Shown: positions 2,511-20,741 of the stretch, piece after piece | Position numbering within the stretch: position 1 is the first letter of the stretch | How the letters are laid out: every line of letters starts with the position of its first letter | Translations under genes and position numbers: made by a program | Origin: a virus | Length of the DNA stretch: 20,848 nucleotides | Direction: 5' to 3' (one strand) | Virus record (IMG/VR): IMGVR_UViG_3300020377_000043 | Span: 1-20,848 of that record | The notes under the pieces: generated by a model | Databases searched by the model: none | Told to the model about the DNA's origin: nothing | Seen by the model: only the letters and a program-made list of their open reading frames with translations

Positions 2511-4256
2511 ATGCATAATACAGAATACTTAGGACCAGAAACATCTATATCAAAAGAAATTGATATGATGAAATATAGACAAAAAGATGAAAGCTTTGAT
2601 GAAAAAATTAAAAGAATATCAAGAGCTTTATCAGATAGTGATGAACATAGATATGAACTAGAAGATATACTAGGTAATATGAGATTCTTACCAGCAGGTA
2701 GAGTGCAAGCTGCAATAGGATCTAATAGGATTACAACTGCATATAACTGTTTTGTTTCAGGTGTAATCGAGGATAACATGAACAGTATAATGGAGAAGGC
2801 CAGTGAAGCTGCTGAGACGATGCGTAGAGGGGGTGGGATTGGTTATGACTTTAGTCGCATCCGACCAAGAGGTGACAAAATTAAATCACTCGATAGCCAG
2901 GCTAGCGGCCCTGTTTCCTTCATGGGTATCTTTGATGCTGTGTGTCAAACCATCGCTAGCTCAGGACACAGACGTGGGGCGCAGATGGGTGTCCTCAGAG
3001 TCGACCATCCGGATATTGAAGAGTTCATTACTGCTAAACGTAATTCTGATAATCTCACTGGTTTTAATATTAGTGTTGGTATAACTGATAAATTTATGGA
3101 GGCATTAACAAATGATTTGGATAGCAGCTTTACGTTGGAATTCGAAGGAAAGCCATACAGGACTATATGCGCAAAAGACCTTTGGGATAAAATCATGGAT
3201 AGCACTTGGGACTGGGCTGAGCCTGGTGTTTTATTTATTGATCGCATAGGTGAGATGAATAATCTTTTTTATTGTGAAGATATATTTGCTACAAATCCGT
3301 GTGGCGAACAACCATTACCTGCATATGGTGCCTGCTTATTAGGATCTTTTAATCTTACAAAGTATTTAGATGAAGAACAAATAGCTGGTGGTGAAAAAGC
3401 AGAATCACATTTTGAGTTTAATTTTAAAAAGTTTAAAGAAGATATATACGAAGTAGTTCGAGCAATGGACAACGTAATTGATAGAACTATTTATCCGTTA
3501 AAGAAACAAGCTGACGAGGCAAAAGATAAAAGAAGAATGGGACTAGGTGTTACAGGCTTAGCTAATGCTGGTGAGCTAATAGGTTTACCTTATGCATCAG
3601 ATGGATTTATGACTTGGGCTGAAAAAATATTTGCATGCTTAAGAGATACTACATATAAAGCATCTGCATTATTAGCAAAAGAAAAAGGTGCTTTCCCATT
3701 ATATAGAGAAGATTATTTAAAGTCAAATTTTATTAGAGGATTACCAGCATCAGTTAAAAAATTAATTAGAGAGTATGGTATTCGTAATAGTCATTTAACT
3801 TCAATAGCTCCAACTGGTACAATTAGTTTAGTAGCTGATAATGTAAGTGGAGGAATTGAACCTGTATTTAGTCATTACTATGATAGAACAATACAAACTT
3901 TCGAAGGTCCTAAGACAGAAAGAGTTGAAGACTATGCTTATAGAAAAGGAAAAGAAGGACGATCTGCTAATGATATAAATGTACAAGAGCATTTATCAGT
4001 ATTATTATTAGCACAAAACTATATAGATAGTGCTTGTTCTAAGACATGTAATGTAGGAGATGACGTTACATATGAAGATTTCAAACAAGTATATGTTGAT
4101 GCCTGGAAAGGTGGTGCGAAAGGTTGCACGACGTTTCGACTTAGTGGCAAAAGATTTGGCGTCTTACAAACAGTGGAAGAAGATAAAGACACTTCAGATG
4201 AAAAAGTCGAAGCGTGTTTTATAGATCCTGAAACTGGTCAAAAGGAATGTGCATAA
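2511..4256 (+). CDS. nrdJ: Class II (adenosylcobalamin-dependent) ribonucleotide reductase
   Basis: Reduces ribonucleotides to deoxyribonucleotides for phage DNA synthesis, using adenosylcobalamin for radical generation. The active-site motif NPCGE (262-266) provides Asn262, the thiyl-radical Cys264 and Glu266. Cys80 and Cys275 fit the reducible pair; the 11-residue gap from Cys264 to Cys275 equals that of Cys408 to Cys419 in the Lactobacillus leichmannii enzyme. Also visible are GGGIGYDFSRIRPRGD (107-122), the phosphate-binding APTGTIS loop (433-439), GCTTFR (538-543) and C-terminal Cys569/Cys580, suited to regeneration of the active-site disulfide. At 581 residues it is compact, with no sign of an N-terminal ATP-cone. 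No class I small subunit or class III activase lies nearby, as expected for class II. It sits between lysis-like and tail genes, not with replication genes. Codons 84-163 are about 50% G+C against 25-32% on both sides, suggesting a mosaic gene. Confidence 0.93.
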   Translation: MHNTEYLGPETSISKEIDMMKYRQKDESFDEKIKRISRALSDSDEHRYELEDILGNMRFLPAGRVQAAIGSNRITTAYNCFVSGVIEDNMNSIMEKASEAAETMRRGGGIGYDFSRIRPRGDKIKSLDSQASGPVSFMGIFDAVCQTIASSGHRRGAQMGVLRVDHPDIEEFITAKRNSDNLTGFNISVGITDKFMEALTNDLDSSFTLEFEGKPYRTICAKDLWDKIMDSTWDWAEPGVLFIDRIGEMNNLFYCEDIFATNPCGEQPLPAYGACLLGSFNLTKYLDEEQIAGGEKAESHFEFNFKKFKEDIYEVVRAMDNVIDRTIYPLKKQADEAKDKRRMGLGVTGLANAGELIGLPYASDGFMTWAEKIFACLRDTTYKASALLAKEKGAFPLYREDYLKSNFIRGLPASVKKLIREYGIRNSHLTSIAPTGTISLVADNVSGGIEPVFSHYYDRTIQTFEGPKTERVEDYAYRKGKEGRSANDINVQEHLSVLLLAQNYIDSACSKTCNVGDDVTYEDFKQVYVDAWKGGAKGCTTFRLSGKRFGVLQTVEEDKDTSDEKVEACFIDPETGQKECA

Positions 4257-4267
4257 AGGAGAATTAA

Positions 4268-6367
4268 ATGGCGAGTAAAGTTATACCTATTAATGACCTA
4301 ACTAAATTTGGTGTAGTTAAAGATACACCTACAGTTGGGTTAGCGCCTAACGTATTTACTGATGCCAGAAATATAAGATTTAGAGATATGGCTGCTCACA
4401 AAATGAAAGGTGATGTAGCATTAACAGCTGACTTAACTATACCAATGCCTGGAGGATCTACTGCAGGAGATATATTATTTATAACATGGTGGAATAATCC
4501 TAACTTAGTTCCATCTAATACTACTTATTATGTATTTGTAGCTGAACAAAAAATAGGTGGTAACGTAGTAGGTAATCGTACATTTCTTTATAGAACTGAT
4601 GGTACTATAAATGATATAACACCTACCATAGACTTACAAAGTACAGGAGCTAATAAAGGTTTTTCTGCAAGTGAAAACTGGCAGTCAACTGAGTTTGCTG
4701 GTGGATTTTGTTTAATAATAAATAATGGTATACAAGCACCTCATTATATAATGGATGATGTTGACAATACAGATATAGCTGCAGTACCTAACTTTGCTAA
4801 ACTACCAGGATGGGAATCATATAACTCAGCTCCTAAAGTATTAGAAGCTACAGTTAAGTTAGCATTTGGTAATACAGGAGTTACAGTTGATAATCCTAGA
4901 TTATTTGATTTAGGACAAAAAATAGATTTTACTAAGAACACTCTATTTGTAACTAAACAAACACCTAATGAAACTACAACTGAATGTGCACCTATAGCTG
5001 CTGGTACTAATGCAGGAAGTAATGCACCTAATGGTGGTGTAATAGCTACAAACTTTGTACCAGGAGATGTACCAGCAACTCCAGCTACTTCAGCTAATAC
5101 TAACTTTCAATATGCGATATATACTAATACAGAAACAGATACTACTAATATTGTTTTTAATACTAATATTGTAGAGAATGATGTTGTAAGATGTTTTGTT
5201 GTATCAAGAAATCCAATATTTACTAGATGCGGTGTTATAAGATCTTTTGGTAACTTTTTAGTTGCAGGTAATTTAAAAGAAAGTACAACAGCTGGTGTTA
5301 TACGTAGCTTACCAGGAGTTGTAAGAACTTCAGATGTAGCAGTACCAGGTTCAGTACCACAGAACTGGAATCCATTTGCAGAAGGAACTAATACAGCTGA
5401 TGAGTTTACATTATCAGATACTGCAACTGTACAAGACTTAGTACAGCTTCAAGGTAATATGTATATTTATACTAATACCTCTATACATAATTTAAGATTA
5501 ACTAATAGCCTTGTAACACCTGTTGCATTTTCACCAGTTACTTCACAGTACGGTGCGCAAACAACTAATGGTGTTATAGAATTTAGTGGTAGACATTTAG
5601 TTATTGGTAGTAATGATATATACATATTTACAGGAAATCCTGGTAATATAACTTCAATAGCTGATGCAAGAGTAAGAGATTATTTTTATAGCAATTTAAA
5701 TAATGCAAAAGCTAATAAGCTATTTGTATTACGTAATCAAAAAGAAGATGAGATATGGATTAACTATCCTAAAGGTACTAGCACAGTTTGTAATGAAGCA
5801 TTAATATATAATTTTAGATTAAACAATTGGACATTAAGAGATTTGAATGGAGTTGTATCTGGCGTTATCGCACCTGTTAAAGGTTCAGGAAATAATGAGA
5901 GACCTTGGACTACAAGCACAGTTAGCTTTGATAAATTATTTCCAGTGTTTGCACAAGTATGCACATCAGGAACAAGTAACTCTGGCTCTTCTATCTTAGC
6001 AGCTGATATAGGTTATACACATAGAGTATTAGATAATAGTGATGATCCTTATACTTCTCATTTAGAACGTAATACATTATCTATAACACCTGAATTTTAT
6101 ACAGAACAATTTAGTTCAATAGCTTTATTAACTCAGGGTACTGGCACATTAAATGTTAAAACAATTTCAAGTAATAATCCAGGAGCTGCAATAGACTTTG
6201 CTAATCCTACTCTTACAGGTACTTTTGATGTTGCTGCTTCTTATAAATCAGATGCTAGATTAAATGGTAGATTTATGAGTTATAGAGTAGATGATGGTAC
6301 AGCTACATCAACATCATGGAATTTATCAGGTCTTCAAATAGAAGTTCAAGATGGAGGAACTAGATGA
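4268..6367 (+). CDS. Tail nozzle / tail tubular protein B-like (699 aa)
   Basis: ATG 4268 follows AAAGGAG (4255-4261) by six bases. The N-terminus (residues 8-50, KFGVVKDTP... DARNIRFRD) matches the opening typical of podovirus tail tubular B/nozzle and stabilisation proteins, where an 'asNvrf' strand precedes a large beta-propeller. The body is almost all beta: Thr, Asn and Ser-rich with blade-like repeats such as FGNFLVAGNL, GRHLVIGSNDIYIF and EIWINYPKG followed by ALIYNFRLNNWTLRDL. T7 gp12, of similar size (about 794 residues), forms the nozzle below the adaptor. Placement just before the fibre gene supports this. Residues about 230-300 are low-complexity Asn/Thr/Gly and may be a surface loop. 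The assignment rests on pattern and context. The stop overlaps the fibre start (ATGA). Confidence 0.62.
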   Translation: MASKVIPINDLTKFGVVKDTPTVGLAPNVFTDARNIRFRDMAAHKMKGDVALTADLTIPMPGGSTAGDILFITWWNNPNLVPSNTTYYVFVAEQKIGGNVVGNRTFLYRTDGTINDITPTIDLQSTGANKGFSASENWQSTEFAGGFCLIINNGIQAPHYIMDDVDNTDIAAVPNFAKLPGWESYNSAPKVLEATVKLAFGNTGVTVDNPRLFDLGQKIDFTKNTLFVTKQTPNETTTECAPIAAGTNAGSNAPNGGVIATNFVPGDVPATPATSANTNFQYAIYTNTETDTTNIVFNTNIVENDVVRCFVVSRNPIFTRCGVIRSFGNFLVAGNLKESTTAGVIRSLPGVVRTSDVAVPGSVPQNWNPFAEGTNTADEFTLSDTATVQDLVQLQGNMYIYTNTSIHNLRLTNSLVTPVAFSPVTSQYGAQTTNGVIEFSGRHLVIGSNDIYIFTGNPGNITSIADARVRDYFYSNLNNAKANKLFVLRNQKEDEIWINYPKGTSTVCNEALIYNFRLNNWTLRDLNGVVSGVIAPVKGSGNNERPWTTSTVSFDKLFPVFAQVCTSGTSNSGSSILAADIGYTHRVLDNSDDPYTSHLERNTLSITPEFYTEQFSSIALLTQGTGTLNVKTISSNNPGAAIDFANPTLTGTFDVAASYKSDARLNGRFMSYRVDDGTATSTSWNLSGLQIEVQDGGTR

Positions 6368-8180: not shown

Positions 8181-8657
8181 TTGAAGATAAGATTAATAGA
8201 GGACAATGATACATTAGACGCAATACGTTTAATGAAAGAATACGTTACAATCAATGGTGAGTTTCATGGCTTTGAATATAATGAAGCTGTATGGATGAGA
8301 TACTTTTTAGATATAGTTGAACATCAAAAAACAAATCCACATTATTTAGCAATAGGTTGTTATACCGAACATAATATACAGGGATTCTTAACAGCGCATG
8401 CATATGTTAATTATTATAATAACAAATATATAATGGATGTTAAAGATTGTATTGTAAATTTAGAGAATAAGAATAATGCTTACATAGTATATAAATTATT
8501 TGATGCTATGATAGAGCATACTAAAAAACATGGTGGTAAACACTGGAGAGCAGACTCAGTGAGAGGGGAAAGTGATTCATTGAGATATGGAAAACTATTA
8601 GCAAAAAGATATAATGCTAAATTAAGTACTTCAATAAGGGGTATCATAGGAGAATAA
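8181..8657 (+). CDS. GNAT-like acetyltransferase-fold protein, positional counterpart of T7 gp13 (158 aa)
   Basis: Starts at TTG 8181, directly after the previous TAA and ten bases from GAGGAG (8165-8170). No in-frame ATG occurs before codon 18, and the first residues (KIRLIEDNDTLDAIRLMKEY) look like the first strand and helix of the GNAT fold, so TTG is very likely the true start. A central strand pair follows (HYLAIGCYTEHNIQGFLTAHAYV), then a strand and helix (KDCIVN...AYIVYKLFDAMIEHTKKHG). The usual acetyl-CoA loop (Q/RxxGxG/A) after the fourth strand is not evident, so it may bind a changed ligand or be non-catalytic. It lies just before the putative internal virion genes, as T7 gp13 does; gp13 belongs, as far as I recall, to a GNAT-related family. 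Confidence 0.62.
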   Translation: MKIRLIEDNDTLDAIRLMKEYVTINGEFHGFEYNEAVWMRYFLDIVEHQKTNPHYLAIGCYTEHNIQGFLTAHAYVNYYNNKYIMDVKDCIVNLENKNNAYIVYKLFDAMIEHTKKHGGKHWRADSVRGESDSLRYGKLLAKRYNAKLSTSIRGIIGE

Positions 8658-9752: not shown

Positions 9753-12700
9753 ATGAAGTTAAAAAAGTTTACACAAAAAGATCGCTACGGGAATATGAGG
9801 TCTTTCGAGTTTGATATTGCAGAAGGACAAATGGAAGTTCCTCCTATGACTTCCTCCATACCCATGTATGATCATCCCGGAGAACCTAGAGGTACTGATA
9901 CGGTACCAGCATGGCTTACTCCTGGTGAATTTGTAGTAAACAAAGAAGCTACAGATATATATGGTCCTGTGATTAAACAGATGAATGATGTAGGTAGAGA
10001 AATACAGGATATGAAACCTGAGTATGCACAAGTTGGCATGCCTGTACCTAAGCCTAGTAAAGATGTTATAGCTGGAGAAAAGTTTAAAAATAAAAGAAGT
10101 AGACAATCTGATATTTATAACCATCTAAAAGAAAACTATCCTCAATTAACTGATAATGCTATTGCAGGTATTATGGGAAATATTGGTGTTGAAACTGGGT
10201 ATACTTATAATTATGAAACAAAACAAAACGAAAATACCGGTGAAAAAATAGGTCCGGGAGAAGGCTTACTTCAATTTGATTGGCATAGACCTTATTATAA
10301 AAAATGGTTAAACGCAAATGATAGATCTGATTCTATGGCATCTCAATTAGATTATTTTATGCAAAGTATTTTTACAAAAGATGCTGTTCCAAATCCTAAA
10401 GATAAAAGTGGATTTGCAGTAGGTGCAGGTAACGTTAAAGAACTACAAGAAGCTCTTACCTCTAATAGCTCTCCTGGAAGTATAGCTACTACTATAACAA
10501 AGCTATTTGAAAATCCTAAAAAAGGATCAGAGCATTATGATAGAAGACAAAATAAATCTAAAGAAATAAAAGAGCTAATAGATAATAAAGCATTTGGCGA
10601 TCCTTCAATTTATGATAAGTATAGAGAGGCAGGGGTAGAAGTGCCTCCCAGTTCAGATGGATTTAGCTTTAACATTCCTAATCCCTTTAGTGGTATTAAA
10701 GAAAAAGCTACTAGCGTTGCTGAAACTGTAAAAGATTTTATAGATCCAAATAATATTGGTTTTAAGTTTGATAAACCAGAAAAAATAAGTCCTTTTAAAG
10801 AAGGTGGTGCAGTGCACTTAGATCCTGGTGGTAGAGTATATGGAACTACCGGTCAGGCTACTTCTACAATGGATGATGATATAATGAAACTTATATTTGA
10901 TTCACAACAAAATGTAGCTAAAGCTAATGAAATATTAAATAATAACTCGTTAAGTTCTGTTCAAGTACCTGAAGATGATAGCACATCTATATCAATGGAT
11001 ATGAGTGTGCCACCAGTACCTAAAACTTTTGAAACTATACCTTTTGGTGCTGATGATATGATTATGGAAAGTAATATTCCGGATCCTATAGGTAGAAGTA
11101 ATACTAAAATTAAAACAGGTTTTGAAGAAGATATATCTGACGTATTACCATTAGATCAACAAACATTCGTACCTTCATATGATCCTCAAGGGTTAGGTGA
11201 AGAGCGTGCTCCAGAAGAAATACTAGGACAAATAAAAGAAGATGATATAACTGCAGAAGCTATGTCAACTGAACGTCCTACTTATGGCGCAGGTAACTTT
11301 GGTTATGATGTAAATAAATCTGATAGAACCACTAAAGCTATTGATAATGAAATTAATACTAATAAGAAAAGAATTAATAAATTATTACAAGATATTTCTA
11401 ATACAAATGATAATGATAAAATAGAAAGATTTAGAAATCAAGTTATAGACTTAGAGAAGCGACAGCAACAATTAGAAATTGATAGACAAAAATCTATTGA
11501 TTTACCTATTGATAAACCTAGTGAATTATATCAGGGTTTAATGGATGAAGCTGAAATTAAAAATATAATAGTTAATGCTAAAGCAGTATTAAATAATCCT
11601 AACGCTACACAATCTGAAAAGTTAGCAGCACAAAAAGTGATAGATACAAATCAACCTAAGCTACCTCAACCTGATACTAGTGAAGCTGAAATTAATTTAA
11701 ATAATGCAGCTAATCAAATGGATGATACAACAGCTAATGAAATATCAAATAAGCTTGCAACTAATGAGGGTAAAGCAAACTTAACAACTAATACAGATCC
11801 AAAGAATCCTAATGTACAGAAAGCTAAAGACGCTATGAAGTTTTTATTTGGTGATCTTATAGATGCTAAAGAAATCGGAAGAGCTGCAGCTGTTTATTTA
11901 GGTTCAAGAGCATTAGGCTATGACCATAACAGTTCAATTAATTATGTTGCTAAACAATATCTTAAAAGAGTAGATGCTAAGACTGCTCAGATAGATAAGT
12001 ATATAGCTGATAATTCTGATAAGTTTGAGGCTGCATCTTTACAAGCATTTAAAGATTCTCGAGGTGACTATACTAAGTTAATGCCTAAGGGTGCAAAGGT
12101 TAGAAGTACTGGTGAAAGAAAAGTATGGTATGGTAAAGACACTGGACCTTCTGGTCAAATGGCTTATAAATTTAAAATGAAAACAAATGAAGGTGATGTA
12201 GTTTATTGGTCATTTGATGAAAATGGTAAGAGCCGAATAGGTGCAGGGTATAGTCAAGATGGTACTAAAGTACGTAATAGTGATCCATTTAATGCTGCAG
12301 CTGAAAAGAAAATACCTGTTATTGCAGACCAAATGAAAGCCTTTTTAGAAAAGTTTGGTAGAAGAAAAACAAAAAGAGATAAGGCTACTCAAGTAATGCA
12401 ATATGAAGATTTTACAGATATTTTACCTGAAATAGATGCACAAAGAGTTGCTTTCTGGGCACAAGAAAATGGTGTACCTTTAACACGATTAGCTGAAGGT
12501 TTAGAAATAGCTATGAGAGATGCAGTTAAAAATTATACTGATCCTCAAAAGGGAAAGACATCATCAAAAGCAGGTAGTGTAATACCTTATTTAGAAGAAG
12601 CCACTATAAAACAAAGATTAGATAGGATGGTCCCAGGTTTAACTCAGGCTAAAGTTGGAGATGAAGTTGTTCAAATAGATACAGCTACTCTAATAAATAT

Positions 12701-12938
12701 TAATGATAGAGTTAAATCAGTATCTCTAGATATTAATAGTTTTTATAATGAAGCTGCAAATATTTGGAATAATAGAGGTAAAGATAGTAACGGTAAACCT
12801 AAAGGTATTAATCCAGACACAGGTAAATTATGGCGAAAAGAATATGAAGAAGCTGCAAAGAAACCCGGAAATGAAGGGCTAACACCGTATGCATTATTTG
12901 TAATTGATATTACTAATAAACTAAGTGGAGTTAACTAA
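9753..12938 (+). CDS. Giant virion protein with phage-lysozyme domain (1061 aa)
   Basis: ATG 9753 follows AAAGGAG by about seven bases. Residues 47-72 hold the motif GTDTVPAWLTPGEFVVNK, well known from tail tape-measure and similar virion proteins. Residues about 112-275 resemble the phage tail lysozyme family: helix IYNHLKENYPQLTDNAIAGI, then GNIGVETGY with the probable catalytic Glu147, then GPGEGLLQFD (167-176). It should cut peptidoglycan locally while DNA enters the cell. A GGAVHLDPGG element lies at 351-360. The middle (about 375-690) is polar and probably flexible, with a coiled coil near 530-585. The C-terminal about 370 residues are a soluble helical region I do not recognise. As the first of three giant genes at the T7 gp15/gp16 position, it is probably ejected. 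T7 has its transglycosylase on gp16 instead. Confidence 0.8.
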   Translation: MKLKKFTQKDRYGNMRSFEFDIAEGQMEVPPMTSSIPMYDHPGEPRGTDTVPAWLTPGEFVVNKEATDIYGPVIKQMNDVGREIQDMKPEYAQVGMPVPKPSKDVIAGEKFKNKRSRQSDIYNHLKENYPQLTDNAIAGIMGNIGVETGYTYNYETKQNENTGEKIGPGEGLLQFDWHRPYYKKWLNANDRSDSMASQLDYFMQSIFTKDAVPNPKDKSGFAVGAGNVKELQEALTSNSSPGSIATTITKLFENPKKGSEHYDRRQNKSKEIKELIDNKAFGDPSIYDKYREAGVEVPPSSDGFSFNIPNPFSGIKEKATSVAETVKDFIDPNNIGFKFDKPEKISPFKEGGAVHLDPGGRVYGTTGQATSTMDDDIMKLIFDSQQNVAKANEILNNNSLSSVQVPEDDSTSISMDMSVPPVPKTFETIPFGADDMIMESNIPDPIGRSNTKIKTGFEEDISDVLPLDQQTFVPSYDPQGLGEERAPEEILGQIKEDDITAEAMSTERPTYGAGNFGYDVNKSDRTTKAIDNEINTNKKRINKLLQDISNTNDNDKIERFRNQVIDLEKRQQQLEIDRQKSIDLPIDKPSELYQGLMDEAEIKNIIVNAKAVLNNPNATQSEKLAAQKVIDTNQPKLPQPDTSEAEINLNNAANQMDDTTANEISNKLATNEGKANLTTNTDPKNPNVQKAKDAMKFLFGDLIDAKEIGRAAAVYLGSRALGYDHNSSINYVAKQYLKRVDAKTAQIDKYIADNSDKFEAASLQAFKDSRGDYTKLMPKGAKVRSTGERKVWYGKDTGPSGQMAYKFKMKTNEGDVVYWSFDENGKSRIGAGYSQDGTKVRNSDPFNAAAEKKIPVIADQMKAFLEKFGRRKTKRDKATQVMQYEDFTDILPEIDAQRVAFWAQENGVPLTRLAEGLEIAMRDAVKNYTDPQKGKTSSKAGSVIPYLEEATIKQRLDRMVPGLTQAKVGDEVVQIDTATLININDRVKSVSLDINSFYNEAANIWNNRGKDSNGKPKGINPDTGKLWRKEYEEAAKKPGNEGLTPYALFVIDITNKLSGVN

Positions 12939-15900
12939 TGACTATTAATATAGATGTGTCTGGTTTTGATAGACCACCACCTATAGATAATATGGAGCAT
13001 CGTTTTATTGATGGTGATACTCTTGTAAATAAAGAAGGTAATCTTCTTAGAATACAAGGTTTAAGTGCACCTGAAATAATGCGTATGATAGATGGTAATT
13101 TAAAACCTGGAACTGCTGGTGGTTGGGAAGCTACTAAACAAATTAGAAACCTAGCTGAACAGTTTGACTTTAACAACGTACATTATCTTACAAATTCTGA
13201 TGGTACTCCTATGATGGATGCTACTGGTACTAGACAGTTAGTTAGAATTACTGATCCAGATGGTAGAGATTTTGTAGAAACTTTAAACTCTTATGGTATA
13301 GGTAAGCTAAATAGATTTAGTTCACCTGAAGAAATAAGAGCATCACAAATAGGTGCAATGCTTAGAGCAGAAGGCACACCTAGCTTACAAGATGAAAGCT
13401 TAGATCAGTTTGATAAAGCAAGAATAGCTATTAATCAAATGGCTGATAGTGAAAAGTTTTATGAAACTGAATTTAAAAAAGTAGCACTTGATGAACAAAC
13501 ATTAGCTAGGTTAAATGCTGAAAGACAACCTGGTGAATCAAATGCTATGTATGCTTTAAGAAAAAGAAGAGCTGCTGATTACTCTAATAATATGGTATAC
13601 AAAAGGCATGGCGATAGAACACTTCAAAATAAAGCACTTCATCCTTGGTCTGAAAGTTTTGATACAGGATGGACTGGTGTTATTGAAGGTGCCTATGGTA
13701 TGGCTGATATGATCGGTGAAAAAACTGGTATCAATTGGTTAGAAGAGCTTGGTAAAGAAGGTATTAAAAGACAACACGAATATCTTGCTAACAAACCTGA
13801 AACAAAAAATAATATACTAAAATATAAATTAGATGATGATGGTAATGTTACAGGAAATGAATGGGATATAGATGGTGTTGGTGGTTTCTTTGAGTATATG
13901 GGAAACATGACAGCTATGGCTTTACCTTATATGGGTGTAACTATAGGTGGTGCTGCGTTAGCTCCTGTAACTGGTGGTACATCTTTAGCAGGTGCTACAG
14001 GTATTGCTGCGCTATCTAATGTTGGTGCTAGTATGCTTGCGCCTGTTTCAGTATATGCAGGACAGAACTGGAATGAAATGGAAGGTGAAGATAAGAGTGC
14101 TAGCTTAGCTGTAGCAGCTGGTGTTACTATGTCGGTGCTAGATAGACTAGGTCTTAAAGGACTTATGGGAGGTGCTAAGGGTACTTTATTAGATTCTAAG
14201 TACAGAGATACTATGATACAAGCATATAAGCAGGCTAACCCAGGAGCAACTGATGATATAGCTAAAGCAGCTATAGGTAATATGACTCGAAAAGAATCTG
14301 CAAAGTTAGCAGGTGATGTAGTAAAAGTTGCAAAGGATCAATTAAAGTTTGGTAGTTTATTAAAAAACTTTTCAAAGAATGCCGCTAGAGGATTTGGTAT
14401 AGAATCAAGTACTGAATTAGGTCAAGAACTTACTGGTTATATGGCAGCAGTATATGGTAGTGATAAGCCATTTGATTCTGTTGAGCTATCTAATAGATTA
14501 ATTAATGCTTATATTGCAGGAGGAACTTTAGGTGCAGGATTTTCTGTACCTGGAACAGCTTATAATGCAGGCGCATGGGCTGATGTAGCTGTAAGACAAG
14601 CGCCAGCTGAAGATAAACGTTTATCTCAAGAAGGTAAATGGGCTGAAGAAGAAATGACTTTAAATAATGGTATACAAAGAAGTAATAAAGATATAGCAGA
14701 AGAAGCTAAGAAAAGAGCTAGAGCTAGACCATTATCACCGTCTGATGATTTTAATGCTATGGCAGATGCTGGTGAACAACAAGCTAAAGATAGAGATACA
14801 TGGTCAAGTGTAAAAGAAACTGCTAAAGAATTACCATTCTTATGGAAAGGCGCTATGCCTCATTTATTTTGGAAGGATTCTTTTCAAAGTAAAGCTATAA
14901 GAAAATTAGGTTCATTAGTAAATGGTTACTTACATCGAATACATTCTGGTGAAACATTTGAAGAATACAAACATCTTCAATTAGCAGAATATAAAAATAT
15001 GGCTATGACACCTTCTCAAGTTGCACAAGCTTTAGGAAAAAATAATAGAGACCCTATAAGAGATTCAAAATTAATATATGCTTTTGGTAGATGGTTAGTT
15101 TCTAAAGGTGATCCTACTAAAATAATGAATATAGATTGGAATACTTTACCAACTGATTTTGAAGGTGAGTTTGATTTAAAAGCAAATGAAAAGTTTCTTA
15201 GAGAATATTATGTAAAAATAAATAAGCTTGGTAATAAGTTATTTAATGATCAAGTTAAAGTTGAAGAAGAATATAGTGATGGTACTAGAACAGGTAAACA
15301 AAGTAAATTAAGAGATAATAATGGTAAAGATAGATTTACTAAAAACTATTTATTAAAATATAAGTCTTTAAATAAAGCTAGTATTGAAAAGAACAAGAAT
15401 GAATTTATTAAAGCATTGCAAGATGAATTTGGATTTACTTTAGATAGTGCTACTGATTTAACAAATGATATACTTGATAATAATGAAATGGTTGATCAAG
15501 AAAGTATATATCAAGTTGGTAAAGGTAAACATGTACCAGCACAATTTAAAAGAAGATCATTAGGTTTATCAGAGCGTGCTAGATTTAATCAGTTTATGGA
15601 AGAAGATCATTTTGTAAACATATCTAATGCAGCTAAATCAGCTACAAGATTTATAGCATACGAAAAGTTTCTTGGTGATAATAATGAAGTTTTTGCACAG
15701 CTATTAAGAGAAGCTAAAGCTGAAGGTTTATCTGAAGAAAGAGTTAATAGAATAGCAGCAGGCTTAAGAGATTACTTACAAGCTGAATCAGGTAACTATA
15801 AAAGAATACAAAATAAAACATTAGAAAATATACAAAAGAATATATTAGTATGGACTACACTTGCAGGATTACCTTTAGCAACTGTATCATCTTTTGTAGA

Positions 15901-17035
15901 ATTTATGATGACTATGAGAGCTTTAACACCTGAACAAATACGTACAGTAATAGGAGTGTCTGCTAAAGAATTTGCACAAGCATTATGGAGTGGCATAACA
16001 AATCCTGGTATTAATTCTGTACAAGCAAGACTTAATAAAGAAAAAAGACAAGCTCGTTTACAGAAGTTAGGATTCTTTGATTGGGATGTTGGTGCATCAC
16101 AAACTACAGGTGCTACAGAAAATACTTATGCTTCAAGATATTTATTAGATAAATACTTTAGAGTAATTGGTTTACAACAATGGACAGACTACACACGTAA
16201 TATAAGAGCTGCTATAGCTGATGATTTTATTATGGATCACTTAGCTACTATACAAGTTGCTAGACAAGGTGGTGGAGTTAAAACTAATGAAGTACAAGAA
16301 GCTGAAGAACAATTAAGAAACTTAGGTATTAATGTTAATAGACTTTTAGATTTAGCTAATCAACCAGTTAATGTAATGCCAGGTGAAAGCATACAGAACT
16401 ATAGATTAAGAAGATCACAAACAGATGCAGAGCTAGATAGAATATTTATGCAAGCTGAATACAATTTTGTTAATGAAGCTATTGCATTACCTGGTACTGC
16501 TAATAGACCTTTGTTTTATAACAACCCACACTTAGCTTTATTCACACAGTTCCAAGGTTTTATAGCTACATTTACAGCTAATCAAATACCTAGAATGTGG
16601 GGTGATTATGTTAAACGTGGTACACCTGCAATGAAGTATAATGCTTTTGCAGTTATGTCAACAATGGTTATGCTAGGATTTGTATCACAGTATTTAAAAG
16701 ATCTATTAAAATATGGTATGGCTACACCGTATTTAGATAGAGCTGAAGTAATTCAAAGAGGTATAGGTGCATCAGGATTAATTGGTGTAGCTGAAAGACC
16801 TTTAAACTTCTTCTTTCCAATCTATGAAACATCATCAAGTAACATGGTAGAAGAATTATTTCAAACAGTATCAGGAGAAGCAGCTGCGTTATCTAATATA
16901 ACAAGAGCTGCTACAGGTGTCGGTCAAGTTGTAGAAGGGAAAACTGAAACAGGTATCTATAAAATATTAAAGACTATGCCTATTATCGGACCTGTTAACC
17001 AGCTTAACAGAAATATAGCCGAGCTATTTGCATAA
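12938..17035 (+). CDS. Giant ejection protein with N-terminal SNase-like nuclease domain (1365 aa)
   Basis: TAATG-coupled to the gene before. Residues about 20-128 match the staphylococcal nuclease pattern: FIDGDTL (Asp25, Asp27), LRIQGLSAPE (Arg38, Glu46), an insert, then DPDGRDF (Arg110) and LNSYGIGKLN. These align with SNase Asp19, Asp21, Arg35, Glu43 and Arg87, and the Arg-to-Glu spacing of eight is identical. SNase Asp40 is Ser43 here, so metal binding may be altered. Residues about 315-412 are strongly hydrophobic and Gly/Ala-rich, suited to membrane passage. A long helical body follows. The C-terminal 180 residues (HLALFTQFQGFIATF..., YLDRAEVIQRGIGASGLIG...) look like the end of T7-gp16-type or large polyvalent internal virion proteins that sit in the portal core. 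It is probably packaged and ejected. Nuclease activity is inferred; it might act on host DNA, incoming rival DNA or be structural only. Confidence 0.78.
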   Translation: MTINIDVSGFDRPPPIDNMEHRFIDGDTLVNKEGNLLRIQGLSAPEIMRMIDGNLKPGTAGGWEATKQIRNLAEQFDFNNVHYLTNSDGTPMMDATGTRQLVRITDPDGRDFVETLNSYGIGKLNRFSSPEEIRASQIGAMLRAEGTPSLQDESLDQFDKARIAINQMADSEKFYETEFKKVALDEQTLARLNAERQPGESNAMYALRKRRAADYSNNMVYKRHGDRTLQNKALHPWSESFDTGWTGVIEGAYGMADMIGEKTGINWLEELGKEGIKRQHEYLANKPETKNNILKYKLDDDGNVTGNEWDIDGVGGFFEYMGNMTAMALPYMGVTIGGAALAPVTGGTSLAGATGIAALSNVGASMLAPVSVYAGQNWNEMEGEDKSASLAVAAGVTMSVLDRLGLKGLMGGAKGTLLDSKYRDTMIQAYKQANPGATDDIAKAAIGNMTRKESAKLAGDVVKVAKDQLKFGSLLKNFSKNAARGFGIESSTELGQELTGYMAAVYGSDKPFDSVELSNRLINAYIAGGTLGAGFSVPGTAYNAGAWADVAVRQAPAEDKRLSQEGKWAEEEMTLNNGIQRSNKDIAEEAKKRARARPLSPSDDFNAMADAGEQQAKDRDTWSSVKETAKELPFLWKGAMPHLFWKDSFQSKAIRKLGSLVNGYLHRIHSGETFEEYKHLQLAEYKNMAMTPSQVAQALGKNNRDPIRDSKLIYAFGRWLVSKGDPTKIMNIDWNTLPTDFEGEFDLKANEKFLREYYVKINKLGNKLFNDQVKVEEEYSDGTRTGKQSKLRDNNGKDRFTKNYLLKYKSLNKASIEKNKNEFIKALQDEFGFTLDSATDLTNDILDNNEMVDQESIYQVGKGKHVPAQFKRRSLGLSERARFNQFMEEDHFVNISNAAKSATRFIAYEKFLGDNNEVFAQLLREAKAEGLSEERVNRIAAGLRDYLQAESGNYKRIQNKTLENIQKNILVWTTLAGLPLATVSSFVEFMMTMRALTPEQIRTVIGVSAKEFAQALWSGITNPGINSVQARLNKEKRQARLQKLGFFDWDVGASQTTGATENTYASRYLLDKYFRVIGLQQWTDYTRNIRAAIADDFIMDHLATIQVARQGGGVKTNEVQEAEEQLRNLGINVNRLLDLANQPVNVMPGESIQNYRLRRSQTDAELDRIFMQAEYNFVNEAIALPGTANRPLFYNNPHLALFTQFQGFIATFTANQIPRMWGDYVKRGTPAMKYNAFAVMSTMVMLGFVSQYLKDLLKYGMATPYLDRAEVIQRGIGASGLIGVAERPLNFFFPIYETSSSNMVEELFQTVSGEAAALSNITRAATGVGQVVEGKTETGIYKILKTMPIIGPVNQLNRNIAELFA

Positions 17036-17045
17036 GGAGAATTAT

Positions 17046-20000
17046 ATGGCAATAAATGTTAATGTACCAGGACAAACCCCTTCAATAACTCAGGGCAATT
17101 TACCTACGGATATATTAGAAAAATCTAAAAACTTACCGCTAGCAGGATTCATGCCTACGATTGCTGAAGATACTTTTGTACAGCAGCAAGATGTTGCTAG
17201 AGTTATGGGTGCAGACTTACAAGATCCAGGTATTACAGAGCAACCTGAGCAAGGTAATGCAGAACCTTCAGCACAAATTGAAATACCAGATCAAGTAGTT
17301 AAGCCTGCTCCTGGAGAAGGTATATCTATTGAAGCTCAGCAAAGAGAACAGGAAAGAGTTAAGTCAATACCAGAAGTACAAGGAGTAGTTACATTAGCTG
17401 GATTAGATGCAGTTATTAATGGAACTGATTCTGCTATGGTTGGTCCTATGATAAGAGCTAAAAATTTACAGGGTATTAATGTAGGTGGTCAGGCTTTTGG
17501 TAGATTAGAAAGAGAAACTTTAGCAGATACAAATAGTTGGGAAGCAACTTTTACTGCAAGAAGAAAAGCAAATGAAGCTAAGAAAACTGGTAAAGATCCA
17601 GTAGATGTAGAGCTGACTACTAAGTTTCCTTTACTAAGAAACTCTACAATTGAAATGAGTAATAAAGCAATACTATATCATCCTGAAGTATTAGATGCAG
17701 GATTAATAGATGATCAAGGTTTAGTACAATTAGATAATGATTTATTAACAACTATGGGTTTAGTAGCTGAGCAGTTTTATATTCAGGGTATGTATACTAC
17801 AGATAATAAAAGTGCTGAAGCTATAGATGAAACTGAATTGGCTGATGGTAATGTAGCTAAACAAATTAAGTATAGTAAAGCACAGGGAAGAGCACAATTA
17901 GGTAGAGAAGTATTTAAACAATATAAAAGATTGCAAGCAGATAAAAGAGGTTTACCTACAGATACTTATGCTGCTAGTATGCAATCAATTCCTAATCATG
18001 TATTTGTACAGATAGGTGACTTAGCTAAAGAAGGGTATCATAGAGCCAACCCAGATATGCTTACACGCTCATTAGAAAATGGGCAAGTTACTTTTACTTT
18101 AACACCAAAAGGTTCTGGTATATTTGAAAATTTATATCACATGTATTCAGGTTTATTTGGTAGAGAAGAAGTTAAACCTATGGTTGCACCAAGTGAAGAC
18201 GGCCAAATGGTTTTTGAGGGTCAGACATATACTAGGAAAGTTACTACACAGATTGGTGATCTTGGTGATACAACAAAAGTATTTGAAGCAATGTCTAATA
18301 TGAATAAAGTTGCTTTTGTAAATGATCCTCGTAGAGAAGCTACTAGTGTTATGTTATTTATGTTAGCATTAGCAAATGCAGGAAGACCTGAAAAAGTACA
18401 AGATAATCAAGAACCTATGTATAGATCTAATCCTACAACAGATGACTATGCTAATATGTTTAAGATAGGTAAACAGAAATATCAAAACTTAGTTAGTGAA
18501 AAAGCAAAACTATTTAATGCTGCTGAAAGAGCTTCACAACAGAGTAAAGATAAAAAAGCAGCATCGCTAAGAGCACAAGCAGAAGCTTATGATCCTATTA
18601 ATATTCTTAATCTTGAAAGAGAAAATGCAATAGGTATTGTTGAAGGTATGCTAAGATACTCTGGTAAAGCTAATTATTTAACTTTTGCTATGCAAGCATT
18701 AACTGGAAGGATGCATGCACAACAAACTGTATATAATCCTCAGGCAAAGAAAATAATTAGAAGTGTTGTAGGTAGTGGTAATGTTTATCAATGGGTTCCA
18801 GGTCAAGGTAAACTAGACACAACTTTTATTGAAGCTATGTCTGCACATTTATTTGAAAATCCAAAGCTATCTGGAATGGATGTAAACTTTAAAAAGAAAT
18901 ATGGTATTGCTAGAACACCACAAGAAAGAATTAAAGTTTTTAAACAAGAAGAATTAAATGCTGAAACTAATCCTGCTAATAGTTTATATATGAAATATGT
19001 AGCAATGGGTGAAGAATTAATTAAGCTTACTCGTAATTATAAAACAAAAACTGCGCAAGGATTATTAGCTAGATTTAAAAATGCTACAAGTCCTAGTGAA
19101 GTAAGATCAATTAAACAAACTATAGGTCAGCAGTTTGGTGGTGATCCTATGACGCAGGGTTTAAAATCTTATCTAGCAAAGTATGAAGATGAAGCTGTAT
19201 TGCAAGCAGATTATTTAATGGCATTAGCAGATTATCATAGAATTAAACAAGCTAACTTAAAAAATCCAAGTAGCCCTCAAACTTTTAAATCTACTATTTC
19301 ATTAGAGATGGATGGTAAAACTCATGGTCCTTCTACTATGGCTGTGTTATTAGGTAGTACTAATATGGCTAAAAGATCTGGTATTATAATGGATCAGAAC
19401 TTTGAAAAGATGGTAGAGTCCGGTGAATTTGCAGATCTTAGAGATGCTATGGCTGATACTATGATAAAGAAATTTGATACAATAACTCAAGGTGTTACTT
19501 ATATTAATCATGAAAATCAGGATGTATATAGAGATATACTTATTGCTGCTATTGATGATAGAGAAAACTTTTTAAAGAAGTCACCTATGACTATGGGTTA
19601 TGGTCAAGAGATTGGATCATTAGTTGGTCATGTAGATAATGCAGTATTTATGAGTTCTGATATTCAAGATATGATTAGAGATCATAACTTAAATACTAAT
19701 GAGGTTGTAGAATTTTTACACACAATATTAGTTGATTCTATATTTGAAACTATGGATCCTGAAACATTAGCAGCAGCTAGACTTATAAAAGCTAATGCAT
19801 TTATGTCTGCTATATCAGGATCATTAATGAAAATTAAGCAACCTACTGGAATACTTTCTACAATTGCAGGTACAGATTCTTTACAGGATGGTGCTACACA
19901 ATATGAATTAGATGGTAAACCTACTACAGTACAACAATATAAAACTGTTACTAACCCAGGAGCATCAAGAAAATTATTTGGTGAAACTGAAATTGCTGGT

Positions 20001-20741
20001 GCCTTTACTACTGGTAGATTATTACCTGCATTAACACAAGGCTTTGATGCTAATATGATTACTAGAACTTTTACAGATTCATGGTCAGCAATACAACAAG
20101 CTGCTAAATCAAATGGTGCTTCAAATACTTTTGTGCTACCTATCTTTGATGCGTTTTTATTAGACTTAGGAACTGCTGATATAGTTAGGAAAGAAGCAAA
20201 TAGACATCATAAAGAATCATTAATTAATGAAGATTTCTTAGAAAAAGTTACAGGATATTATAACAATAAATTTAAAAGTGACTTAAATAAAATACCAGAT
20301 AATGAAGTATTTGATACTACAGAAGATGCTAGTAAATTTAAAGTTATTAGTGAGCTATTTGAAGTAAGTGAAACTAATAGATCTTCTACAGGAACTTCAA
20401 AAGGTATTGCACAAATGCTTAGAGCACTAGGCTTTGGTAAATATAATTGGAATAGACAAGAAACTTTAGCAGAGTGGAATGATAGAATATCAAAACAATC
20501 TTTTATTGATTCTAAAATAATTGAAGCTAAGCTAGATAAGATGTTAAAGAAAAAAATATCTACTAGTTTAGATAAGCTTACTGGTAAAGAAATAAAAACT
20601 ATTATAAAAGAAATAGATAATGCTTTACAAATAGCAGCTAGAAATAAAGGTGCTGAAAAAATAATAGGTGATAAAAGAGCAGCTGTAAGAAGTATTGTTA
20701 ATAGTGATATGAATACAGTTAACGTAGATCACAATACTTAA
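17046..20741 (+). CDS. Single-subunit RNA polymerase-like protein, candidate virion RNA polymerase (1231 aa)
   Basis: The frame opens at TTG 17028, but AAGGAG (17034-17039) lies six bases before ATG 17046, so I place the start there. The C-terminal half has single-subunit RNA polymerase motifs in order: LTGRMHAQQTVYNPQ (Arg555; cf. T7 DWRGRVYAVSMFNPQ), motif A LEMDGKTHGPSTM (Asp756; cf. T7 Asp537 in DGSCSGIQH), motif B KKSPMTMGYG (Lys844, Tyr852; cf. T7 KRSVMTLAYG, Lys631, Tyr639) and motif C VLPIFDAF (Asp1035; cf. T7 IHDSFG, Asp812). A-to-B is 96 residues (102 in T7) and B-to-C 183 (173). The Asp of T7 DxxGR is Ala551 and the His of HD is Phe1034. The N-terminal part is longer than in T7. 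Last of the three giant ejection-type genes, it may be packaged like N4 vRNAP. MT before YG and DG in motif A argue against a family A DNA polymerase. Confidence 0.75.
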   Translation: MAINVNVPGQTPSITQGNLPTDILEKSKNLPLAGFMPTIAEDTFVQQQDVARVMGADLQDPGITEQPEQGNAEPSAQIEIPDQVVKPAPGEGISIEAQQREQERVKSIPEVQGVVTLAGLDAVINGTDSAMVGPMIRAKNLQGINVGGQAFGRLERETLADTNSWEATFTARRKANEAKKTGKDPVDVELTTKFPLLRNSTIEMSNKAILYHPEVLDAGLIDDQGLVQLDNDLLTTMGLVAEQFYIQGMYTTDNKSAEAIDETELADGNVAKQIKYSKAQGRAQLGREVFKQYKRLQADKRGLPTDTYAASMQSIPNHVFVQIGDLAKEGYHRANPDMLTRSLENGQVTFTLTPKGSGIFENLYHMYSGLFGREEVKPMVAPSEDGQMVFEGQTYTRKVTTQIGDLGDTTKVFEAMSNMNKVAFVNDPRREATSVMLFMLALANAGRPEKVQDNQEPMYRSNPTTDDYANMFKIGKQKYQNLVSEKAKLFNAAERASQQSKDKKAASLRAQAEAYDPINILNLERENAIGIVEGMLRYSGKANYLTFAMQALTGRMHAQQTVYNPQAKKIIRSVVGSGNVYQWVPGQGKLDTTFIEAMSAHLFENPKLSGMDVNFKKKYGIARTPQERIKVFKQEELNAETNPANSLYMKYVAMGEELIKLTRNYKTKTAQGLLARFKNATSPSEVRSIKQTIGQQFGGDPMTQGLKSYLAKYEDEAVLQADYLMALADYHRIKQANLKNPSSPQTFKSTISLEMDGKTHGPSTMAVLLGSTNMAKRSGIIMDQNFEKMVESGEFADLRDAMADTMIKKFDTITQGVTYINHENQDVYRDILIAAIDDRENFLKKSPMTMGYGQEIGSLVGHVDNAVFMSSDIQDMIRDHNLNTNEVVEFLHTILVDSIFETMDPETLAAARLIKANAFMSAISGSLMKIKQPTGILSTIAGTDSLQDGATQYELDGKPTTVQQYKTVTNPGASRKLFGETEIAGAFTTGRLLPALTQGFDANMITRTFTDSWSAIQQAAKSNGASNTFVLPIFDAFLLDLGTADIVRKEANRHHKESLINEDFLEKVTGYYNNKFKSDLNKIPDNEVFDTTEDASKFKVISELFEVSETNRSSTGTSKGIAQMLRALGFGKYNWNRQETLAEWNDRISKQSFIDSKIIEAKLDKMLKKKISTSLDKLTGKEIKTIIKEIDNALQIAARNKGAEKIIGDKRAAVRSIVNSDMNTVNVDHNT

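Follow-up and report, generated by a model that had tools for sequence, protein, structure and literature searches.

A divergent staphylococcal-nuclease-like domain at the amino-terminus of a putative ejection protein from a lineage of mostly marine short-tailed phages

Wall-cutting domains are a known feature of the ejection proteins in short-tailed phages. In phage T7, the amino-terminus of gp16 contains a lytic transglycosylase, as the first-pass annotation of the present locus had correctly stated, and this amino-terminal domain is periplasmic after ejection (PMC8954989). Staphylococcal nuclease (SNase) domains are common in phages as stand-alone genes. Among published fusions of such a domain to a virion component, the closest we found comes from B. 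thuringiensis israelensis: the BtI1 baseplate-hub protein has an SNase-related domain at its amino-terminus, for no obvious reason according to its authors (PMC2147016). It resembles the protein described here in carrying such a domain at its front, but it is a single case from a large, atypical Bacillus phage lineage and the carrier is unrelated. An SNase domain on the ejection protein of a podovirus is not described in the open-access literature that we searched; the paper on phage CRP-7 contains no word starting with "nuclease", and nucleases are unmentioned in the ejection-protein review. The SNase fold is known and so is the type of carrier, while their lineage-wide combination is apparently undescribed.

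The window analysed here is the whole 20,848-nucleotide stretch of IMG/VR virus record IMGVR_UViG_3300020377_000043. The features of its structural region are:

4268..6367, + strand: tail-tube/needle-head-like virion protein, LUZ24 type (phrog_3287, E-value 7e-60)
9753..12938, + strand: preceding protein, 1061 amino acids, with a phage tail lysozyme domain (Pfam PF18013, E-value 1e-16)
10104-10574, + strand: the phage tail lysozyme domain, residues 118-274 of the preceding protein (Pfam PF18013)
12938..17035, + strand: giant virion/ejection-type protein, 1365 amino acids, open frame (phrog_6958 and LUZ24/PaP3/tf matches)
12986..13366, + strand: predicted SNase-fold domain, residues 17-143 (core residues 20-125, 12995-13312), from AF2, Foldseek, VIA-align and hhalign
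13895..14167, + strand: Gly/Ala-rich hydrophobic stretch, residues 320-410 (hydropathy peaks)
15518..16807, + strand: carboxy-terminal core, residues 861-1290, common to LUZ24-type proteins without the SNase domain
17028..20741, + strand: following protein, 1237 amino acids, third giant of the cassette (CRP-7 gene order)

From its amino- to its carboxy-terminus, the 1365-residue protein (open reading frame 12938-17035) is made up of the SNase domain, a helical linker, the Gly/Ala-rich hydrophobic stretch and a LUZ24-type core. Hydropathy peaks are located at the Gly/Ala-rich stretch in the window protein, its relatives, CRP-7 and tf_51, and residues 320-410 of the window protein form a possible membrane-active region. 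The core (residues 861-1290) matches virion structural proteins of LUZ24-type Pseudomonas phages and of CRP-7, including phrog_6958 (virion structural protein) with an E-value of 5e-18; in tblastn searches with the window protein, 72 phage records were matched via residues ~860-1286. The LUZ24/PaP3/tf protein (phrog_6958) is homologous in its hydrophobic stretch and carboxy-terminal core, while tf_51 (1021 amino acids) lacks the first ~150 residues and begins past the SNase domain. The LUZ24-type Pseudomonas relatives are without an SNase domain.

The product of 4268..6367 also resembles LUZ24-type proteins named "particle/tail/needle head". Downstream of the gene for this tube-like protein, the three giant genes of the window form a cassette (1061, 1365 and 1237 amino acids) that is syntenic with that of CRP-7 (1223, 1368 and 1235 amino acids, in the order gp35-gp34-gp33); the 1237-residue protein has a likely ATG start at 17046, with AAGGAG ahead of it. 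CRP-7 gp34 (MK613349, 1368 amino acids, annotated as hypothetical) belongs to the same family, lies in the same three-gene cassette and has an amino-terminal SNase-like domain. It is ~21-29% identical in this domain and, unlike the window protein, keeps Asp40 (VRFGFGDAGE, DPYGRQ). The core homology to the LUZ24/PaP3/tf virion structural proteins, together with the synteny with CRP-7, speaks for the assignment as an ejection protein made in the first-pass annotation. We consider the 1365-residue protein to be probably the ejection protein, LUZ24-type and gp16-like, of a marine podovirus, extended at its amino-terminus by a fused SNase domain. By homology, it is likely to be present in the virion and ejected. 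With T7 gp16 it would share the giant size of an ejection protein, an enzymatic amino-terminal domain and hydrophobic segments, the likeness being one of architecture; where gp16 has its lytic transglycosylase, the window protein has a nuclease-type domain.

Unlike in T7 gp16, the phage-lysozyme domain in the window is located in the gene preceding the SNase carrier. This upstream giant gene contains a Phage_lysozyme2 domain in the window and two relatives, and a Pesticin-type lysozyme domain in CRP-7, while Pfam recognised no domain in the upstream giant gene of relatives L004 and L010. The wall-cutting domain of the neighbouring gene therefore varies where the SNase domain is fixed, which suggests modular swapping beside a constant SNase domain. 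Here the wall-cutting role that belongs to the amino-terminus of gp16 in T7 is apparently filled by the adjacent gene and freely swapped. The upstream giant gene itself keeps its place (window 9753-12938, L004:810-4310, L005:4384-7977, L010:2234-5992, L016:3670-7341). By eye, the L004 and L010 genes looked lytic-transglycosylase-like, for which Pfam gave no confirmation. Among the tail and structural genes of the window there is also an adenosylcobalamin-dependent (class II, NrdJ-type) ribonucleotide reductase (2511-4256, + strand); CRP-7 likewise has an adenosylcobalamin-type ribonucleotide reductase, next to the structural genes and split in two by its annotation.

The first-pass annotation had proposed an SNase-like domain at the front of the 1365-residue protein, with the motifs IDGDT and LRIQGLSAPE inside 12995-13330. 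The positions are borne out, and fold, profile and conservation all agree with the proposal: residues ~17-143 are, as modelled, a divergent SNase domain. Structure prediction, which the annotation had put forward as a check, gave an OB-type SNase fold. The AF2 model of the domain calculated with 40 relatives has a pLDDT of 88 and a pTM of 0.81, and its topology (b-b-b-...-helix-b-b-helix) follows the SNase OB-fold order. When it was compared with the PDB using Foldseek, all 50 matches listed were SNase variants or SNase repeats of human SND1 (best E-value 2e-4, probability 1.00), the active ternary complex 1snc being among the SNases matched. VIA-align superposed 117 residues with an r.m.s.d. 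of 3.3 and a Z-score of 9.5, and its list consists entirely of SNases. An earlier AF2 model, based on 20 sequences, was patchy (pLDDT 60); Foldseek nonetheless placed SNases first (E-value 3e-3), and the VIA list for this model has SNases mixed with extended-Tudor domains at a Z-score of ~6.

Profile-profile alignment of the family with seven phage SNases by hhalign gave an E-value of 1.6e-5 with 22 sequences and of 3.3e-7 (probability 93) with 40; none of 200 column shuffles matched the observed score in a rerun with the 22-sequence profile. The profile of the window subclade alone aligned weakly, with 5 of 200 shuffles equally good, in an unchanged register. The Pfam SNase profile (PF00565) did not match the window protein, and three relatives (L139, L141 and L146) stayed below its curated cut-off of 21 bits (15.8-16.5 bits, E-values 0.012-0.02), so the window domain is best filed as a divergent SNase relative and not as a Pfam member. 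The more divergent relatives spell the motif RLKGIDAPE, and L139 also matches phrog_452 (endonuclease). The sole clear family match of the window domain is PHROG 18798 (E-value 1e-4 to 6e-6), an unannotated profile that is matched by a hand-written SNase consensus as well (6e-9) and so represents SNases itself. Searches of the PDB sequences with phmmer (window domain) and hmmsearch (small profiles) returned no SNase; with the 40-sequence profile SNase was found at E-values of 0.03-0.15, but under an unrelated foldase at 0.018, and the PDB sequence search on its own is therefore no evidence. Weak matches to Gordonia tape-measure proteins (tblastn E-values 0.08-0.3) were put down to chance, the matched stretch having no DGDT motif.

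When compared with S. aureus thermonuclease and the PF00565 family, the window domain shares the predicted OB-type fold over ~117 residues and, with their order unchanged, counterparts of D19, D21, R35, E43 and R87. It differs in having only ~20% identity, in missing the Pfam cut-off, in being fused to the amino-terminus of a giant virion protein, in having a serine for Asp40 and in the location of Arg99 on a longer loop. Its motifs are IDGDT (D25, D27, T28), LRIQGLSAPE (R38, S43, E46), DATGTRQLVRI (R99) and DPDGRD (R110), and the residues concerned are:

13010..13018, + strand: Asp25-Gly26-Asp27; D25 corresponds to SNase Asp19 and D27 to Asp21 (metal ligand), both invariant in 51/51 relatives
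13049..13051, + strand: Arg38, counterpart of SNase Arg35; invariant in 51/51, from the hhalign alignment
13064..13066, + strand: Ser43, substituted at the SNase Asp40 position (family counts; Asp in the tree outgroups)
13073..13075, + strand: Glu46, counterpart of SNase Glu43; invariant in 51/51
13232..13234, + strand: Arg99, counterpart of SNase Arg87; invariant in 51/51, aligned on the YGR arginine
13262..13267, + strand: Gly109-Arg110; Gly109 invariant and Arg110 variable among 51 relatives, no catalytic counterpart

Conservation was analysed over 51 non-redundant domains with less than 90% mutual identity (mean pairwise identity 39%, minimum 21%). The only invariant positions are D25, D27, R38, E46, R99 and G109, five of which are the counterparts of SNase D19, D21, R35, E43 and R87. 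A simple column draw puts the chance of finding all four catalytic columns in the invariant set at ~4e-6, a figure that serves only as a guide, as it disregards that charged residues and glycines stay conserved for many reasons. The first-pass annotation had named Asp27, Arg38, Glu46 and Arg110 as the counterparts of Asp21, Arg35, Glu43 and Arg87, and proposed a survey of these residues in homologues. The first three assignments stand, each residue being invariant, while Arg110 varies freely (R27, E16, Q2, N2, D2, V1, T1) and lies in the segment equivalent to "ADGKMVNEAL" of SNase. The true counterpart of Arg87 is Arg99, which the profile-profile alignment with the seven phage SNases places on the arginine of the "YGR" motif and whose site reads HGRQL or DPYGRQ in relatives; Arg110 is ruled out for this role. 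Because Arg110 was the wrong residue, its variation does not refute the assignment as an SNase.

Ser43 had rightly been recognised as a changed Asp40 counterpart. At this position the 51 relatives have D29, S9, E8, N3, Q1 and T1, so that it is changed in 22 of them, with the carboxylate gone in 14. On a tree built on residues 171 onward, thus excluding the SNase domain, both outgroup lineages (the CRP-7 type and the L044/L047 type) have aspartate, and serine, threonine and glutamate are confined to the window clade. Aspartate looks ancestral, and Ser43 would then be a derived, tolerated change. Asp40 is the least critical acid of the SNase active site, while changes at Arg35, Arg87 and Glu43 are severe; the conservation pattern of the family agrees with these severities. 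Between the window and the 95%-identical relative L002, dN/dS is 0.05 for the domain and 0.16 for the whole gene, the former value indicating strong purifying selection on the SNase domain.

Relatives were gathered by the carboxy-terminal core alone, with the amino-terminus excluded. An SNase-like domain is present in 59 of 60 distinct 5'-complete relatives, the exception (L157) being a 439-residue fragment; the architecture is lineage-wide in these mostly marine short-tailed phages. A separate, Pfam-recognisable SNase was absent from the 13 phage records tested, and a plasmid search with the SNase domain of a relative gave no matches. According to a published study, LUZ24-like structural modules are widespread in oceanic metagenomes, and the larger clade is assigned to Pelagibacterales phages (PMC10386132). 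The contig of a 77%-identical relative (L156) was binned with a Candidatus Pelagibacter MAG, a weak host clue. Another relative, L158 (CALGTL010000115.1), from a Dehalococcoidia MAG, has an SNase-type amino-terminus with the sequence RLESIDAPE; its placement suggests either a host range beyond marine alphaproteobacteria or a binning error.

The strict conservation of the catalytic set makes an injected nuclease plausible and favours it. The best reading, to our minds a moderately probable one, is a catalytically competent, virion-borne nuclease that is delivered with the genome. Judged from the sequences, the SNase domain is likely to be active in the family as a whole, and reasonably likely in the window, given Ser43. 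It would be a functional, metal-dependent phosphodiesterase that is packaged into virions, then delivered with the genome into the cell envelope or cytoplasm, and that cuts nucleic acid as infection begins. Host DNA would be its most likely substrate, with early breakdown of the host genome and supply of nucleotides. This target is slightly favoured by the adenosylcobalamin-type ribonucleotide reductases encoded by both the window and CRP-7, which fit nucleotide recycling, and by the SNase of SPbeta-group phages, which is annotated as a chromosome-degrading nuclease. The retention of Asp40 in CRP-7 gp34 also counts for a delivered nuclease. Against it count the removal of a metal-ligand carboxylate by Ser43, the weak match of the window subclade to SNases and the missing PF00565 match, the control that an active nuclease packed with its own genome needs, and a topology that, if like that of T7 gp16, would put the domain in the periplasm, away from the host chromosome. 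In the lineage of the window, losing the carboxylate at the Asp40 position would probably weaken or retune metal binding without ending activity.

SNases want millimolar calcium, which is present in seawater and absent from the cytoplasm. This dependence speaks for a serious rival to host DNA as the target, rather unlikely in itself: a periplasmic nuclease, active in the millimolar calcium of seawater and idle in the low-calcium cytoplasm, that destroys DNA from competing phages or free DNA present in the envelope. We know of no exclusion phenotype, which weighs against such a role, as does the loss of the calcium-ligand carboxylate in the window lineage. The location of the SNase domain, amino-terminal to the hydrophobic segments, would suit it, and so would the periplasmic position of the amino-terminal domain of gp16 after ejection of T7 (PMC8954989). 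Taking the structural place of that same gp16 domain, a dead SNase fold might bind DNA or build the ejection tunnel, which we think unlikely. The loss of the Asp40 counterpart in 22 of the 51 relatives, and of the carboxylate in 14, would fit a dead fold, but most relatives retain Asp40, and a pure binder is not expected to keep the counterparts of Glu43, Arg35, Arg87 and Asp21 in 51 of 51 amid near-total change elsewhere. The earlier suggestion that the changed metal ligand might mean a binding-only domain is disfavoured likewise, position 40 being variable and the counterparts of E43, R35 and R87 invariant.

Action on the phage's own DNA, for instance trimming or nicking of the entering end, is very unlikely. 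If the protein is an internal one, the domain would be packaged together with the genome, and for tf, a phage of LUZ24 type, localized single-chain interruptions of the DNA are annotated in the record; however, SNases cut with little sequence specificity, and tf, the nicked relative, is without an SNase domain. Most improbable of all is that there is no kinship with SNase and that the likeness of the motifs is convergent or accidental. The window has no Pfam SNase match and the profile of its subclade is weak when used alone, but fold, profile, the intermediate relatives (L139, L141 and L146) and catalytic conservation together contradict this explanation. Returning to the delivered nuclease, we tentatively put forward a broader and rather doubtful proposal: in this mostly marine podovirus lineage, a virion-delivered nuclease may be a standard part of the ejection machinery, inactive inside the capsid and activated by the metal conditions that it meets in the compartment of delivery, with the Asp40 position retuned by lineage.

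If ejection proteins do carry a strictly conserved nuclease, these phages could attack nucleic acid ahead of any phage gene expression. The consequences would extend to the takeover of slow-growing hosts by marine phages, to the exclusion of rivals, and to how a virion holds a nuclease without ruining its own genome. The lineage of SNase-bearing phages is widespread in marine metagenomes, and the family offers natural variants at one metal ligand (Asp, Glu, Ser, Asn, Gln and Thr), which makes the mechanism directly testable.

In Anoxybacillus phage A403 (L062), an SNase gene (521-1681) is located directly 3' of the tail tape-measure gene; it reads VNTPE, with asparagine at the Asp40 counterpart, and is a further instance of an SNase within a tail module. 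Kinship of this nuclease with the carrier described here was ruled out, as it is related to the stand-alone YokF-type nucleases. PHROG 8809 (2317 positions), a giant unannotated phage family, has an internal SNase at 1101-1205 and is weakly matched by L139 (E-value 2.6e-5). Finally, the window encodes a 158-residue protein (8181-8657, + strand) that is acetyltransferase-like by eye, with no Pfam match, and that is kept in L005, L010 and L012 at a site flanked by the tail-fibre region on one side and the giant genes on the other.
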